IMG/VR virus record: IMGVR_UViG_3300026521_000463
Coordinates: 1-64,000 of that record
Reading direction: 5' to 3' (one strand)
DNA from: a virus
Length of the DNA: 64,000 nucleotides
Below, piece by piece: positions 7,500 to 30,894 of this stretch. How positions within the stretch are numbered: position 1 is the stretch's first letter; every line of letters starts with the position of its first letter. A model generated the notes under the pieces. The model worked only from the letters and a program-made list of their open reading frames with translations. It was not told the DNA's origin and did no database searches. The position numbers and the translations under genes are program-made.

Positions 7500-7528
7500 A
7501 TTATAACAAAAAAGAAAAAGAAAGTCAA
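7500..7528 (-). promoter_or_regulatory. sigma70-type promoter
   Basis: TTGACT, 17 bp, TATAAT on the minus strand. It heads the operon running from the Cys-rich peptide to the first methylase. The -35 lies over the 3' end of the upstream gene. Confidence 0.85.
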
Positions 7529-8529
7529 GAACAAAATTCTTTTTTAAGTAATTTCATAAACATTTTTTCTAATTCATTCCAATTTGCTTTTTTAGGTAAA
7601 TTTTCTTTTGCCACTTCTTGAAGTTTTTCAAAATTTGCGAACTCAACTTCCATTCTTTCTTCTAATTCTTCAAGTGTAAATTCTAAATTTCTGATTTTTT
7701 TAAGTTCCTCAGCATTTTCTAATGGGAATTTTAATTCTTTTTTAACAATTAAATCTCTACCTTCTTCTAAAAGTCTAAATAAATGAAGGAAAAATTTAGC
7801 ATCAAATCCTACTGTTTTCCATTGCTCTGCTCTATGACTTGAAGTGGCGATTTTTTCTTTCATCATTTTGTTTGCTTTTTTGATAAATAAATTTCTCGGA
7901 AATGTTAAATTACTTACAACGATTCCATCTTTCTTAAATAAATGTTTAAAAGGTGCGAACTCATTGTGATGTTGAATTTCTCCTACTGTCATAACTCCGT
8001 CGTGATTTTCAAGGAATTTTTCAAGTGTTTCTTGTAAAGCAATTAAATCTTTGTAATTTACTGCTTTGTTTTTACCTTTTTTCATTTGACTTTTAGCATA
8101 TCCCATAAATGAATGAAATACTCTTTGATTGATAAATAACTCGCTGTTATTTTGAAATTCCTCAAATTCAGGTGTATTGAATACAACTGCTTCAGGATTT
8201 GTGTGAGAAAATAGCAATTCCACAATGTTTGGATTTACATCCCCTGCTAATTTTAAAAATTTTTTTAACTCATAAACTTTACAATCTAATGCTTCCTTTG
8301 TATTTTTACCACTCTCATCTTTCACAACATCTGACAAATCAACTTCTTCAACATTTTTGAAACCTAAGTGAAATTCAGGATTTGCTAAGAATACACCTAA
8401 AAAGTCTGTATCTGATTCAGGTGTATTTGTCCCGTATAATTGACTACCACTCTTTGTTAAAAATAATAATCTACCAAAAGGTTTAATTCTTTCTTCAACC
8501 ATTTCTAAAATTTCTTTGTTTGTTCTCAT
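7525..8529 (-). CDS. YcgL/RlaP-type predicted nucleotidyltransferase (COG3541)
   Basis: Starts with the COG3541 signature: GSQLYGTNTPESDTDFLGV with GS at 28-29 and the metal aspartates D40 and D42. A long helical region follows in which NP-x-hh-E-LLF and GYAKSQ-type segments fit the family. At 334 residues it has full family length. These proteins are common in phages, are placed in the nucleotidyltransferase superfamily and have been linked to RNA repair or ligase-associated functions; the substrate is not known. Monocistronic, with its own promoter carrying a perfect TTGACA. Confidence 0.75.
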   Translation of the reverse strand: MRTNKEILEMVEERIKPFGRLLFLTKSGSQLYGTNTPESDTDFLGVFLANPEFHLGFKNVEEVDLSDVVKDESGKNTKEALDCKVYELKKFLKLAGDVNPNIVELLFSHTNPEAVVFNTPEFEEFQNNSELFINQRVFHSFMGYAKSQMKKGKNKAVNYKDLIALQETLEKFLENHDGVMTVGEIQHHNEFAPFKHLFKKDGIVVSNLTFPRNLFIKKANKMMKEKIATSSHRAEQWKTVGFDAKFFLHLFRLLEEGRDLIVKKELKFPLENAEELKKIRNLEFTLEELEERMEVEFANFEKLQEVAKENLPKKANWNELEKMFMKLLKKEFCS

Positions 8530-17476: not shown

Positions 17477-17707
17477 TTAAAATGAAAAGATAACTATATA
17501 ACTACCAAATACCATTAAAAACAATATAAAATAAAAAATATCCTGAGAAAGATATGATTTATTTTTTATATCATTTTTTAATTCTTTTCTTGAAAATTTT
17601 AAAAACTCTTCAAGAAGTGAAAAAGTCAATGCAAAAGCATGCAAAACTAATGGCACGATTATAAAAATTACAATAAGTAAATGGATTATAAAAAATAATA
17701 ATCCCAT
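17477..17707 (-). CDS. small membrane protein, two TM segments
   Basis: Hydrophobic N-terminal region (LLFFIIHLLIVIFIIVPLVLH) and C-terminal span (DIFYFILFLMVFGSYIVIF) separated by a charged loop. It shares its first base with the end of the Thg1-like gene. Function unknown. Confidence 0.65.
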   Translation of the reverse strand: MGLLFFIIHLLIVIFIIVPLVLHAFALTFSLLEEFLKFSRKELKNDIKNKSYLSQDIFYFILFLMVFGSYIVIFSF

Positions 17708-18522
17708 TACTCATCCTCACTTCTGAATTCTTCTTCATTGATATACTTATCAAATAATTCTGATTTATAATCTTCAAGTAATTCACTCCAAGTTCTTATT
17801 CTGCTTCTTTCAACCACACCACTTGCTGTTTCTTTCATATAAAGTTCTTTTTTACAAAATGTCCCATACTTAAACCATTCAGGACTCTCTCCAAAACTTT
17901 TGTCTGTTTTTTCATAAGTCAATGCAATTTGCTCATTTGCTGTTTTACCTTGTAGTTCTTTATGACTACAATATGCTTGAGCAAAACCTGTTTTGGCATT
18001 TCTAAAAACATCGTGATTTCTCCACTTGAAATTATCAAAAACTTCTTTAAGTGATTCAACACCATAAACTCTGGCATCAAAAAATGCTTCAAATCTTTTA
18101 CTTATAAGTGTATCCAGATATTTCAAATCCCATCCGTAATCTTTATAATGAATAGTTTCAATTTCCCAAAAAGCATTAAATTCTTTTGTGGCAAATGCCG
18201 ACAATAGACTTGCCATTTTTTGAGTTCTACCAGCAAAAGGATGTGTTTGTTTTTCATTTTCAGGTTTTGGAAAATAAAGCGTAATTTCATCAGAACCTGT
18301 GAAACCTAGATTGGCATTAAATTTATCTACTAATGCCACCATTGTATTAACCATAACTTTACCTAAAATTTCATCGTAAGGTTTTCTCAATTTTTTAGTG
18401 AATTTACTAAATTTATGACCATCAAGTCTAACAATAATGTGATTCCAGGGTGCTATAACTGTTTCAAAACTTTTTTCAATCTGTTTAAATTCATAATTTC
18501 TATTTATAATGTTTTCTTTCAT
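17707..18522 (-). CDS. Thg1-like 3'-5' nucleotide polymerase
   Basis: Matches the tRNA-His guanylyltransferase family: IIVRLDGHKFSKFTK with metal Asp at 34, LGFTGSDEITL with the second metal pair D78/E79, and FDARV and W-R-x-x-D-like segments further on. The family adds nucleotides in the 3'-5' direction, either G-1 on tRNA-His (Thg1) or 5'-end repair of truncated tRNAs (Thg1-like proteins). The eukaryotic HINNLYNT motif is absent, favouring the repair-type branch. About 271 residues. The start was chosen at ATG after AAGGAGTGAAA. Confidence 0.85.
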   Translation of the reverse strand: MKENIINRNYEFKQIEKSFETVIAPWNHIIVRLDGHKFSKFTKKLRKPYDEILGKVMVNTMVALVDKFNANLGFTGSDEITLYFPKPENEKQTHPFAGRTQKMASLLSAFATKEFNAFWEIETIHYKDYGWDLKYLDTLISKRFEAFFDARVYGVESLKEVFDNFKWRNHDVFRNAKTGFAQAYCSHKELQGKTANEQIALTYEKTDKSFGESPEWFKYGTFCKKELYMKETASGVVERSRIRTWSELLEDYKSELFDKYINEEEFRSEDE

Positions 18523-18531
18523 TTTCACTCC

Positions 18532-23296: not shown

Positions 23297-23506
23297 TTAA
23301 GATAACTCTTTAAATTCAACGATTTTGTTATCTTCAATTATCGCTCTATAAACTCTATTGTGGTCTATTAAAAAAGCAGTATTGTCGTCAGGTCTTACAA
23401 AAACTGTTTCTTTTGAAGTCATTCCACTTGATAAAGTATATCCCCTATCGATGTAATTTTTCATCATATCTTTTTTAATGTCCATTTCATTTATATTTTT
23501 TGTCAT
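23297..23506 (-). CDS. hypothetical protein (69 aa)
   Basis: First gene of a three-gene operon with its own promoter and an AAAGGAGACGAAA ribosome site. Small polar protein with strand-rich C-terminus. Unknown. Confidence 0.6.
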   Translation of the reverse strand: MTKNINEMDIKKDMMKNYIDRGYTLSSGMTSKETVFVRPDDNTAFLIDHNRVYRAIIEDNKIVEFKELS

Positions 23507-23534: not shown

Positions 23535-23563
23535 ATTATAACAAAAGAAAAAAGATTTGTCAA
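23535..23563 (-). promoter_or_regulatory. sigma70-type promoter
   Basis: TTGACA, 17 bp, TATAAT on the minus strand. It marks the boundary after the eight-gene host-interaction operon. Confidence 0.85.
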
Positions 23564-24320: not shown

Positions 24321-24776
24321 TTACTCCTTTGTCAAATAATGTTCTTTATAGTAATTAACAATTTTTGAAAAAATTGCCATATTAGGTGTATATCTATCAT
24401 TTTGTAATATAGAACAATTTTTAATAAATTCCTCCATTTTACAATTTGATTTTTCTATACACTTGATATAAGTTATTGCCATTGCTACAGCAGCACTTCT
24501 GCTCTCTCCTGCATCACAATGGATTATAAGATTATCTTTTTTTGAAAATTCTATAATTTTTTTAATAGTTATATCATCAATATCATCTTGGAAATATATT
24601 TTTATATAACTATTAAATTTTTTATAATCTTCATCTGTAATTAAATCATCGTCTGAAATTGAAATAAGATTATATTTAGATGTATCTTTACCAAAAATAA
24701 GTAAAGACATAACTTCAAATTTTGAAATTATTGCTATTATATATTCATTAGATGAAGTATTAAAAAGTTTTAGCAT
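24321..24776 (-). CDS. dual-specificity/tyrosine phosphatase-like protein
   Basis: Contains the cysteine phosphatase signature HC-x5-RS: HCDAGESRSA at 86-95, with nucleophile C87 and phosphate-binding R93, after a hydrophobic strand (NLIIHC), as in DSP/PTP enzymes. A general-acid Asp may lie in the preceding acidic segments (DDIDDIT). At 151 residues it is the size of a minimal DSP. It follows the FliM-like gene after 26 bases in the same operon. Substrate could be a phosphoprotein or a phosphorylated nucleotide or RNA end. Confidence 0.75.
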   Translation of the reverse strand: MLKLFNTSSNEYIIAIISKFEVMSLLIFGKDTSKYNLISISDDDLITDEDYKKFNSYIKIYFQDDIDDITIKKIIEFSKKDNLIIHCDAGESRSAAVAMAITYIKCIEKSNCKMEEFIKNCSILQNDRYTPNMAIFSKIVNYYKEHYLTKE

Positions 24777-24802: not shown

Positions 24803-25381
24803 TTAACCCTTCCCTATTTTATACTTCTTTTTTTCATTTATACAAATAATCCCATCAATAGGAATATCTATATCAACTTTATAATAAGTATTTTTCCCTT
24901 TTAAGTTGTAATCACTTTTGATTTTTATTTGTGGATAAGTGTCATTCTCTATTCCTAATTCTTTTAATAAATTATCAAAAATTACCTTTGCCCCGTCTAT
25001 TGAATTGTCGTCAATGGTATTATCAGGTTTAGGTGTTCCTGCAAGCATATAATCCATCATAGCATTCATCAATTCTATTGAAACTAAAATTTCTACTTTT
25101 TTTATTTTTAGAGCATAATAGCAATTATATTTATGAATTTTTTCATCAATTCTATAATAATTTATATCTCCTGCTCCACACATATTTTTAAAAATATCAT
25201 ATAATCTTCTAATGATATTATGAGGTGTTAAAAGTGTTTTCTCTTTTTTTGCTTTCAAATCATCTTCTTCAACTACTTCTAAAAGTGCATTTATTTCCTC
25301 ATCTGAAAGGATTCTTTTAGATAAATCTTTTGGTATAGTGTAATCTGTCTCGTCAAAATGCTCATTAAAATAATCTACCAT
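24803..25381 (-). CDS. FliM/FliY-like protein with CheY-binding motif
   Basis: Residues 24-40 (RILSDEEINALLEVVEED region) closely match the N-terminal CheY-P-binding motif of flagellar switch protein FliM (ILSQEEIDALL), including the EVV-acidic continuation typical of Campylobacterota. Residues 95-185 (SIELMNAMMDYMLAG, then a helix and GIICI-type strands) resemble the CheC-like FliM/FliY middle domain. The protein is 192 residues against about 330-360 for FliM and lacks a C-terminal FliN-like domain. A mimic that binds CheY-P or the motor is inferred. It overlaps the upstream gene by 7 bases, indicating coupling. Confidence 0.7.
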   Translation of the reverse strand: MVDYFNEHFDETDYTIPKDLSKRILSDEEINALLEVVEEDDLKAKKEKTLLTPHNIIRRLYDIFKNMCGAGDINYYRIDEKIHKYNCYYALKIKKVEILVSIELMNAMMDYMLAGTPKPDNTIDDNSIDGAKVIFDNLLKELGIENDTYPQIKIKSDYNLKGKNTYYKVDIDIPIDGIICINEKKKYKIGKG

Positions 25382-25668
25382 TTTATACCTTTAATTAAGT
25401 TTTCTCTAAACTTATATTTTATTTCATCTTTTCTTCTGTGATGTTTATTTTTGCCTTCAAGTTTTTGAACTTTTATCATTCTATTATATTCAATTTTTGA
25501 TTGCCCTATATTAAGTAACTTCCAAACTTCGTATCTCGTCATTACAGATTTTTTCAAGTTTCTTCTATAACTCCTAAAAGAGTGTAAATCATCAAAAAAT
25601 GATGATTTAGAAATCCTTAGAACTGATAAATTTCTCCACTCTTTAAAATTCCATTCTAGAAAACTCAT
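25375..25668 (-). CDS. small basic protein (97 aa)
   Basis: The start is set at MSFLEWNFKEW just after the stop of the hydrolase gene; a longer frame from 25698 has no ribosome site. Very basic, with Arg/Lys/His clusters (SFRSYRRNLKKS, KNKHHRRKDEIKYK). Possible nucleic-acid binder. Coupled to the FliM-like gene by overlap. Not recognised. Confidence 0.6.
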   Translation of the reverse strand: MSFLEWNFKEWRNLSVLRISKSSFFDDLHSFRSYRRNLKKSVMTRYEVWKLLNIGQSKIEYNRMIKVQKLEGKNKHHRRKDEIKYKFRENLIKGIKW

Positions 25669-25669
25669 T

Positions 25670-26365
25670 TTATTTCTCGTCATAAATTGAAGTGTCAATC
25701 ACATCTTCAACTTTTATTTCTTCATCTGTGTGATAGAATTCCCATTCAATTCTTTCATTTTCAAGTAATTCAAAATAAACAGAATTGAAGTCATCTTTGC
25801 AGCAATGTATGCTGTTATGTGATAAACCTCTGCTAAAATCGTGATAAACTTTTATTTTATCAATTAAAATATGCTTTTTGATAACTTCAAGGATATTAAC
25901 ACTTGCCTTGGTATCTCCGCTTATTAAAAAGTTACCAAAAAATGAATATAACCCATAACAATTAAAAGGACCGTGATTGACTCCAATAGCAGTCATTCTC
26001 AACTCTGTTTCATTCATTGTCTTAAACTCAACCATCTCAACAGGAACATTCTGCCCATTCACATAAATTGAATTAAATTTACCTTTAAAAATATCTTTTA
26101 ATTCTTCAATAACTTTACTTCCAGAGATTACAATTGTTTTTAAACCTCTAACAAAATATCTGAAATAGATAAGTCTTTCAAGGTCTGAGATGTGGTCTAA
26201 ATGGGTATGACTTATGAAAATATAATCTATATCTTCATCTTTAACCTTTTGAAAAATGCCGTGCCCGCAATCAAATAAGATAGTTTCACGACCTTCAATT
26301 AAAAAAGCACTTGACACTTCACTAAAAGCACCACCATTTCCTAATTTTGTTATTTTAGTTTTCAT
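25670..26365 (-). CDS. metallo-beta-lactamase-fold hydrolase
   Basis: Carries the MBL signature HTHLDH at 53-58 after the strand-Asp LFDCG (30-34). Further metal ligands are likely in VNHGPF and in the SGDT segment, with a later His (HDFSRG/HNSIHC). The layout resembles RNase Z or phosphodiesterase-type members (about 230 residues) that cleave RNA or cyclic nucleotides. The same operon contains a TerD-domain protein and the FliM-like gene. Substrate unknown; anti-signalling cleavage of cyclic nucleotides is a possibility only. Confidence 0.8.
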   Translation of the reverse strand: MKTKITKLGNGGAFSEVSSAFLIEGRETILFDCGHGIFQKVKDEDIDYIFISHTHLDHISDLERLIYFRYFVRGLKTIVISGSKVIEELKDIFKGKFNSIYVNGQNVPVEMVEFKTMNETELRMTAIGVNHGPFNCYGLYSFFGNFLISGDTKASVNILEVIKKHILIDKIKVYHDFSRGLSHNSIHCCKDDFNSVYFELLENERIEWEFYHTDEEIKVEDVIDTSIYDEK

Positions 26366-29910: not shown

Positions 29911-30894
29911 TTAAAAAATATATTCTATTTCATAAACACTATCATCTTCACCTAATAGTGGTAATTCAAATCCTCTTCCCATATCACTCCAAAGATAAAA
30001 TAAATTTTTATCTCCTCTTTTTTTGTTTCTTTTTTCTAATTCATCTAATCCAATAAGTGAGACATACATTTTTGTATTAAAATTCTTATTGAAAAATTTT
30101 CTTCTGCTTTTTATAGACATATTTGTTCTATCAACCACAAAATCTTTTCTTGCTTTTAGTAATTTCCCTTTTTTAACTTCAAAAAGTTTATCTATCTCTT
30201 TATGGTCTTCTTTAGATAACTTTTTCCAAATCTCATTATAATCCGTTTCATTGAATTTATCTTTTCCGTATTCAAGTAAAATATCATCTCTACTTAACAC
30301 ATGAAGTCCGTTGAGATTTTCTTTTATATAAGTTGATTTACCACAACCTGGTAACCCTATAAATAAATGGATTGTAGGTTTATTAGGGTCTTTTTTAGGC
30401 ATTTCAATCTTTTCTAATTCAACTTTTACATCCCTTCCTTCTTGGTCTTCAAAACATATATTTCCTGCAGTGTCATATTTTCTGAACTCATATAAATTTT
30501 TTAAAAGTTTAAGATTATGTTTAAAGTATTGTCTTATTTGTCTTTCACTTTTTTGCCATAATGCTCCGTGATAATTTATAGTATAAAGGATATCTATATC
30601 CTCAACACTCAAATAACCTTTATCACCCATTAAGTAATCAATTGCTATTAAAGTTGAAAAATGCTCGTGTCCTGTATATAATACTCTTCCATTTTCATTT
30701 ATAAATTTTGAAACAGGTTTTCCTAAGTCGTGTAATAAAGCAACTTTTTTCATAAATTCACTTTTTGCTTGACTAAAAACCATACAAGTATGACTCCAAG
30801 TGTCATCCTCAAGATGATATGTCTCACTTGGCACAATTGTATTTTTTAAAACATTCATATAATCTTTTTTAACTTTTAAAAATAATTCTTTCAT
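29911..30894 (-). CDS. HD phosphohydrolase fused to polynucleotide-kinase-type P-loop kinase
   Basis: Residues 27-160 form an HD domain: H27, LLHDLGKP with HD at 55-56, GHEH at 75-78 and a later Asp. Residues 172-327 form a P-loop kinase: IHLFIGLPGCGKST (P-loop 180-188), SRDD (201-204) and VVDRTNMS, the pattern of the T4 Pnk kinase domain. T4 Pnk pairs its 5' kinase with a HAD 3' phosphatase; here an HD domain takes that place. RNA or DNA end healing is plausible, together with the Thg1-like protein and ligase. It heads its own operon. Confidence 0.8.
   Translation of the reverse strand: MKELFLKVKKDYMNVLKNTIVPSETYHLEDDTWSHTCMVFSQAKSEFMKKVALLHDLGKPVSKFINENGRVLYTGHEHFSTLIAIDYLMGDKGYLSVEDIDILYTINYHGALWQKSERQIRQYFKHNLKLLKNLYEFRKYDTAGNICFEDQEGRDVKVELEKIEMPKKDPNKPTIHLFIGLPGCGKSTYIKENLNGLHVLSRDDILLEYGKDKFNETDYNEIWKKLSKEDHKEIDKLFEVKKGKLLKARKDFVVDRTNMSIKSRRKFFNKNFNTKMYVSLIGLDELEKRNKKRGDKNLFYLWSDMGRGFELPLLGEDDSVYEIEYIF

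Follow-up and report, generated by a model that had tools for sequence, protein, structure and literature searches.

In the flagellar switch, a peptide of FliM binds phosphorylated CheY (CheY-P), and this binding drives switching of the motor. In Campylobacter jejuni, CheY binds the N-terminal EIDAL motif of FliM (PMC6946799), and in Escherichia coli Asp12 of FliM forms a salt bridge with Lys119 of CheY (PMC7012829). Here, we describe a gene from a virus, lying in the 64,000 nucleotides that were analysed (the window), which are part of a 93,352-base and possibly incomplete IMG/VR virus record (IMGVR_UViG_3300026521_000463). Judged from sequence comparison and a predicted model, its product is a hybrid protein in which a FliM-type CheY-P-docking peptide is followed, after a short charged linker, by a CheC-like body whose nearest family is FliY. 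The open reading frame (ORF) is on the minus strand only, the plus strand being closed over the same interval, and its parts are the following:

24803 to 25381, minus strand: FliM/FliY-like hybrid gene, 192 residues, ATG start
25262 to 25312, minus strand: putative CheY-P-docking motif of FliM type, residues 24-40, ILSDEEINALLEVVEED, recognized by identity with Campylobacterota FliM, profile score and hhalign
24803 to 25237, minus strand: predicted CheC-like domain, residues 49-192 (structured over about 53-183), from the AlphaFold model and Foldseek against PDB
24956 to 25102, minus strand: FliY-alignable segment, residues 94-142 (hhalign 63%; NCBIfam NF006272)

The original prediction, made from the letters of the DNA, held that residues 24-40 are almost a FliM N-terminus, and this is borne out, as the motif is identical to the best Campylobacterota FliM N-termini at 15 of 17 positions and scored 40.5 bits against a profile built from 60 distinct Campylobacterota FliM N-termini. 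Elsewhere in the 93-kb record, read in all six frames, no stretch scored above 4.9 bits, and 300 shuffled controls reached a maximum of 12.8 bits (Gumbel P of about 3e-8). The EVV-acidic continuation, which the original prediction associated with Campylobacterota FliM, is indeed found there: the pattern EEI[DN]ALLEVV occurred at no fewer than 117 loci in genome contigs, and among the matches listed, 115 of 117 were FliM N-termini reading LSQEEIDALLEVV. The records with these N-termini are labelled Campylobacterota, apart from a single metagenome-assembled genome titled Proteobacteria; the remaining two matches are unrelated Gemmatimonadetes frames. Other viral contigs matching the motif pattern were likewise rejected as unrelated frames. 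Furthermore, when FliM was compared by hhalign with the 67 ORFs of the window, the hybrid ORF ranked first with a probability of 88% (next ORF 2.4%), and the NCBIfam FliM profile aligned its positions 1-24 to residues 23-47 (E 0.085). By sequence, the motif thus appears specific to Campylobacterota FliM and lies far above chance.

Behind the motif, the protein leans towards a different relative. Scanning the NCBIfam library with the hybrid matched two families only, FliY first (NF006272, E 7.1e-6, residues 94-141, at 25.8 bits where the curated cut-off is 219) and FliM second. Comparable results were obtained when hhalign was run with some 30 families drawn from Campylobacterota loci: with the full alignment of the three phage sequences (the hybrid, its homologue and a paralogue, the latter two from a second phage described below) FliM ranked first through the motif, and without the motif FliY came first at 48%, the next family reaching 5.5%. 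In the converse comparison of FliY with the 67 window ORFs, the hybrid was again first (63%; next ORF 4.8%). The body on its own gave a probability of 0.7% with FliM; the hhalign comparison with 12 sequences of small CheX-like proteins gave 14%, weaker than with FliY. In a HMMER search of 298 Campylobacterota genomes with the three-sequence profile, FliM matches were confined to the N-terminal motif, and UvrB came first (about 1e-3), while hhalign placed it second or third (about 5%); since nothing links UvrB to the docking peptide or to the body, we took this match as chance. HMMER searches against Pfam, PHROGs and PDB returned nothing useful for the hybrid protein, and no Pfam FliM match. 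Sequence therefore places the body nearest to Campylobacterota FliY, with the FliM middle domain more distant.

The fold was predicted independently, as only the three phage sequences (residues 49-192) were given to AlphaFold and FliM and FliY were kept out of the input. The best of five models (m12a222ec6ac3) had a predicted local distance difference test score (pLDDT) of 74.8 and a predicted TM-score of 0.75; the other four reached 42-54, so that a confident fold was obtained in one model only. A single-sequence model had a pLDDT of 43, and its Foldseek search was uninformative. The order of elements in the best model, helix, three strands, helix, and then again helix and three strands, is that of the CheC-like superfamily, and in a Foldseek search against PDB ranks 1-28 were all CheC-like (CheX, CheC, Thermotoga maritima FliY, and FliM of Helicobacter pylori and Salmonella). 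The best E value was 4.2e-6, the first unrelated structure appearing at 0.36, with TM-scores of about 0.4-0.57 denoting a match of fold and not of detail. Among the CheX structures matched (1squ, 3hzh and 6vpw), 3hzh is CheX solved in complex with activated CheY. The model thus assigns the body to the CheC-like fold superfamily. Of the earlier claim that the C-terminal 90 residues resemble the middle domain of FliM and FliY, the CheC-like character stood; the domain is longer (about 53-183), nearer to FliY, and by sequence not a FliM middle domain. Foldseek against the viral structures of BFVD gave no match to the body model at E 0.001.

One other phage carrying the hybrid gene was found in IMG/VR (IMGVR_UViG_3300026484_000284, L003/G002; hereafter the sister phage). 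Its homologue (L003:12369-12947) is 47% identical and keeps the motif core VNALLEVVNEDDLKAKK, and the same phage encodes, at L003:16414-16824 on the plus strand, a CheC-like paralogue of 136 residues without the motif, for which no counterpart was found in the window record. Additional family members were found neither by tblastn of 50,697 phage records and 72,556 plasmids nor by two designed DNA patterns and one profile-based scan. That only two phages carry the gene, and that overall sequence matches are modest, might suggest a chance resemblance or a captured fragment decaying without function. However, the motif has a P of about 3e-8, the body is backed independently by sequence and by structure, and 39 invariant columns and intact reading frames are preserved between the phages at 44-47% identity, together with synteny; a stretch reading KSD[YF]NL.G is strongly conserved. 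We regard this explanation as largely refuted and hardly credible. As to other phage-labelled records carrying FliM, in Microcystis phage MaAM05 (MW495066.1) fliM lies among murJ, fabI and engB, and this record has the look of bacterial DNA filed under a phage name, MT835480 is 'unverified' and unannotated, and Listeria contigs are also among them.

The ORF ends after the CheC-like domain and no SPOA domain (PF01052) was found in the 93-kb record, in agreement with the early remark that the FliN-like end is missing; neither SPOA nor receiver domains were detected in the window record or in two related records, all of them possibly incomplete. In the three phage sequences, the FliG-binding GGxG loop, present in 92 of 92 host FliM, is replaced by AGTP, DEED and DEQK. 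The AlphaFold model also shows no counterpart of the helix that ends the FliM middle domain. Conversely, the EIDALL motif occurs in none of 79 host FliY, and the phage combination is therefore more than a plain copy of a single host gene. The protein belongs neither with FliM or FliY nor with the enzymes of the CheC/CheX type.

These features bear on two further explanations. As the fold is that of CheX and CheC, the protein could be a CheC/CheX-type phosphatase recruited to CheY by the motif. However, the catalytic Glu and Asn are not conserved: where E96 and N100 are invariant in FliY, the phage proteins have V/V/Y and N/T/Q (a placement that rests on the FliY alignment), and host FliY itself was described as lacking active sites (PMC6946799), which makes a phosphatase highly improbable. 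A second possibility is that the CheC-like domain inserts beside FliM or FliY in the C-ring, where it would jam the motor or bias it while the motif competes for CheY-P on the spot. The fold, shared with the FliM middle domain and FliY, and a sequence nearest to FliY would suit such an intruder, the more so as FliM and FliY of C. jejuni form one ring module (PMC6946799). Yet this module was proposed to form via SPOA domains (PMC6946799), of which the phage protein has none, and the contact to FliG and the last helix are lost as described above; we consider insertion into the ring unlikely. Because the GGxG loop, SPOA and the last helix are all missing, a decoy for CheY-P is favoured over C-ring entry, and with SPOA, GGxG and the catalytic residues absent, binding is the simplest function.

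We propose the following model, in which the phage protein mimics the flagellar switch. During infection of a motile Campylobacterota host, the hybrid protein would be produced in the cytoplasm, where its peptide would occupy the FliM-binding face of CheY-P. CheY-P would thereby be kept from the motor, switching would become less frequent, and the infected cell would swim differently. The CheC-like body might hold the peptide in a dimer, or might add a second contact with CheY or with the switch. In favour of this model are the specificity of the motif, the preservation of its core in a gene at the corresponding position of the sister phage, the membership of the body in a superfamily whose member CheX was solved together with activated CheY, and the precedent of FlaGrab for Campylobacter phages that act on flagella of the host. 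The central step, binding of host CheY-P by the phage protein in competition with the motor, we regard as an evenly balanced proposition. With slightly less confidence than that, we suggest that the virus steers its host, the hybrid taking CheY-P from the flagellar switch or misdelivering it there so that swimming suits the phage. If so, it would, within our searches, be without precedent both as a viral CheC-like protein and as a phage protein directed at chemotaxis output.

Several observations weigh against this model. First, both phage proteins with the motif have Asn at the position of E. coli Asp12, where 92 of 92 full-length Campylobacterota FliM keep the Asp of EIDAL, and the affinity for CheY may therefore be low or of another kind. 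Second, the motif of the sister phage is weaker overall, with 17.6 bits against the FliM N-terminus profile. Third, the motif-less paralogue indicates that the domain is also of use without the peptide. Finally, a Campylobacterote host, although the natural reading of a FliM-type motif, rests on that motif: the relatives of capsid (closest to Rhizobium phages), sheath (closest to Cobetia and Yersinia phages) and topoisomerase (nearest to Vibrio phages at 42%, then, after uncultured phages, to Campylobacter phages at 35%) are scattered over phages of various other hosts, and these genes therefore do not tell the host.

The paralogue and the replaced Asp, together with the strongly conserved KSD[YF]NL.G stretch, would fit an adaptor, that is, a domain recruited outside motility whose motif binds another receiver domain or response regulator, or a partner in some phage process. 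For such a partner, however, a motif so specifically that of Campylobacterota FliM, including its EVV-acidic continuation, would be an odd coincidence, and we hold the adaptor explanation to be doubtful.

Returning to the locus, the genes around the hybrid gene are arranged as follows:

25375 to 25698, minus strand: small ORF, 107 residues as listed from TTG, overlapping the hybrid gene at its start (ATGGTAG), conserved at the equivalent position of the sister phage
24321 to 24776, minus strand: dual-specificity/tyrosine-type phosphatase, the downstream neighbour (Pfam DSPc 9.2e-7; HCDAGESRS loop), with a counterpart downstream in the sister phage too
23791 to 24318, minus strand: Calx-beta-like protein with an apparent N-terminal hydrophobic stretch (Pfam 7.1e-6), kept in the sister phage
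23535 to 23563, minus strand: perfect sigma-70 consensus promoter, TTGACA and TATAAT with a spacing of 17 and a TG extension

The small ORF, which has no Pfam or NCBIfam match, is likely a translationally coupled neighbour of the hybrid gene. The HCxxGxxR loop of the phosphatase is apparently intact, and nothing was found tying this enzyme to CheY. The Calx-beta-like gene is followed by an ORF of 66 residues, likewise kept in the sister phage, and the promoter follows the hybrid gene cluster and precedes the ORF at 23297-23506. In the sister phage the order is a 610-residue protein, the overlapping small ORF, the hybrid gene, the phosphatase, the Calx-beta protein and the 66-residue protein; compared with the window, a metallo-hydrolase is gone and an ORF of 121 residues is inserted.

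The record encodes a contractile-tailed phage, with tail sheath, major head protein and prohead protease, as well as a split topoisomerase II, a DnaB-type helicase, a DNA ligase and an SbcC-like subunit, and by sequence the phage appears to be a deep branch. In addition, the window contains a member of the Thg1 family (tRNAHis guanylyltransferase; 17707-18528, minus strand; Pfam 8.2e-26), and no tRNA gene was found in the window; the Thg1 homologue of the sister phage (L003:16854-17738) adjoins the motif-less CheC-like paralogue. An RlaP-type nucleotidyltransferase (7525-8529, minus strand; Pfam 2.1e-22) and an HD-domain/polynucleotide-kinase-like protein (29911-30894, minus strand) are also present, and these two possibly form an RNA repair set.

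If the proposed model is true, a virus can take over chemotaxis output, and altered swimming of infected cells becomes a directly testable question. Furthermore, a small natural binder of CheY-P would be a tool for the Campylobacterota, whose C-ring is unusual. Even with the mechanism wrong, the protein would be the first viral CheC-like protein as measured by the BFVD structure library. In the literature searched, no phage protein was described as acting on FliM, CheY or the switch, and the nearest precedent is FlaGrab (Gp047), a Campylobacter phage protein acting on host flagella (PMC7099621). Its mechanism differs from that proposed for the hybrid, as FlaGrab binds flagellar glycans from outside (PMC7099621).

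Among cellular proteins, Campylobacterota FliM resembles the hybrid in having an N-terminal CheY-docking motif with a CheC-like fold behind it, whereas its motif starts near residue 4 instead of residue 24 and its body cannot be aligned by sequence with that of the phage protein. Campylobacterota FliY is the nearest family for residues 94-142, shares the CheC-like fold and likewise lacks the phosphatase residues, but has SPOA and no EIDALL, the reverse of the phage protein. CheX and the single-domain CheC-like proteins, including small ones of Campylobacterota, also consist of one CheC-like domain of about 135 residues; in contrast to these, the phage protein lacks the catalytic Glu and Asn and carries the FliM peptide. 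In its arrangement the hybrid is also reminiscent of Bacillus subtilis FliY, which joins a CheY-P-binding N-terminal peptide and a CheC-like domain in one protein, but which has phosphatase activity and carries a SPOA domain at its end. Thus, the parts are known, and it is their arrangement and their presence in a virus that are new, as far as our searches reach.
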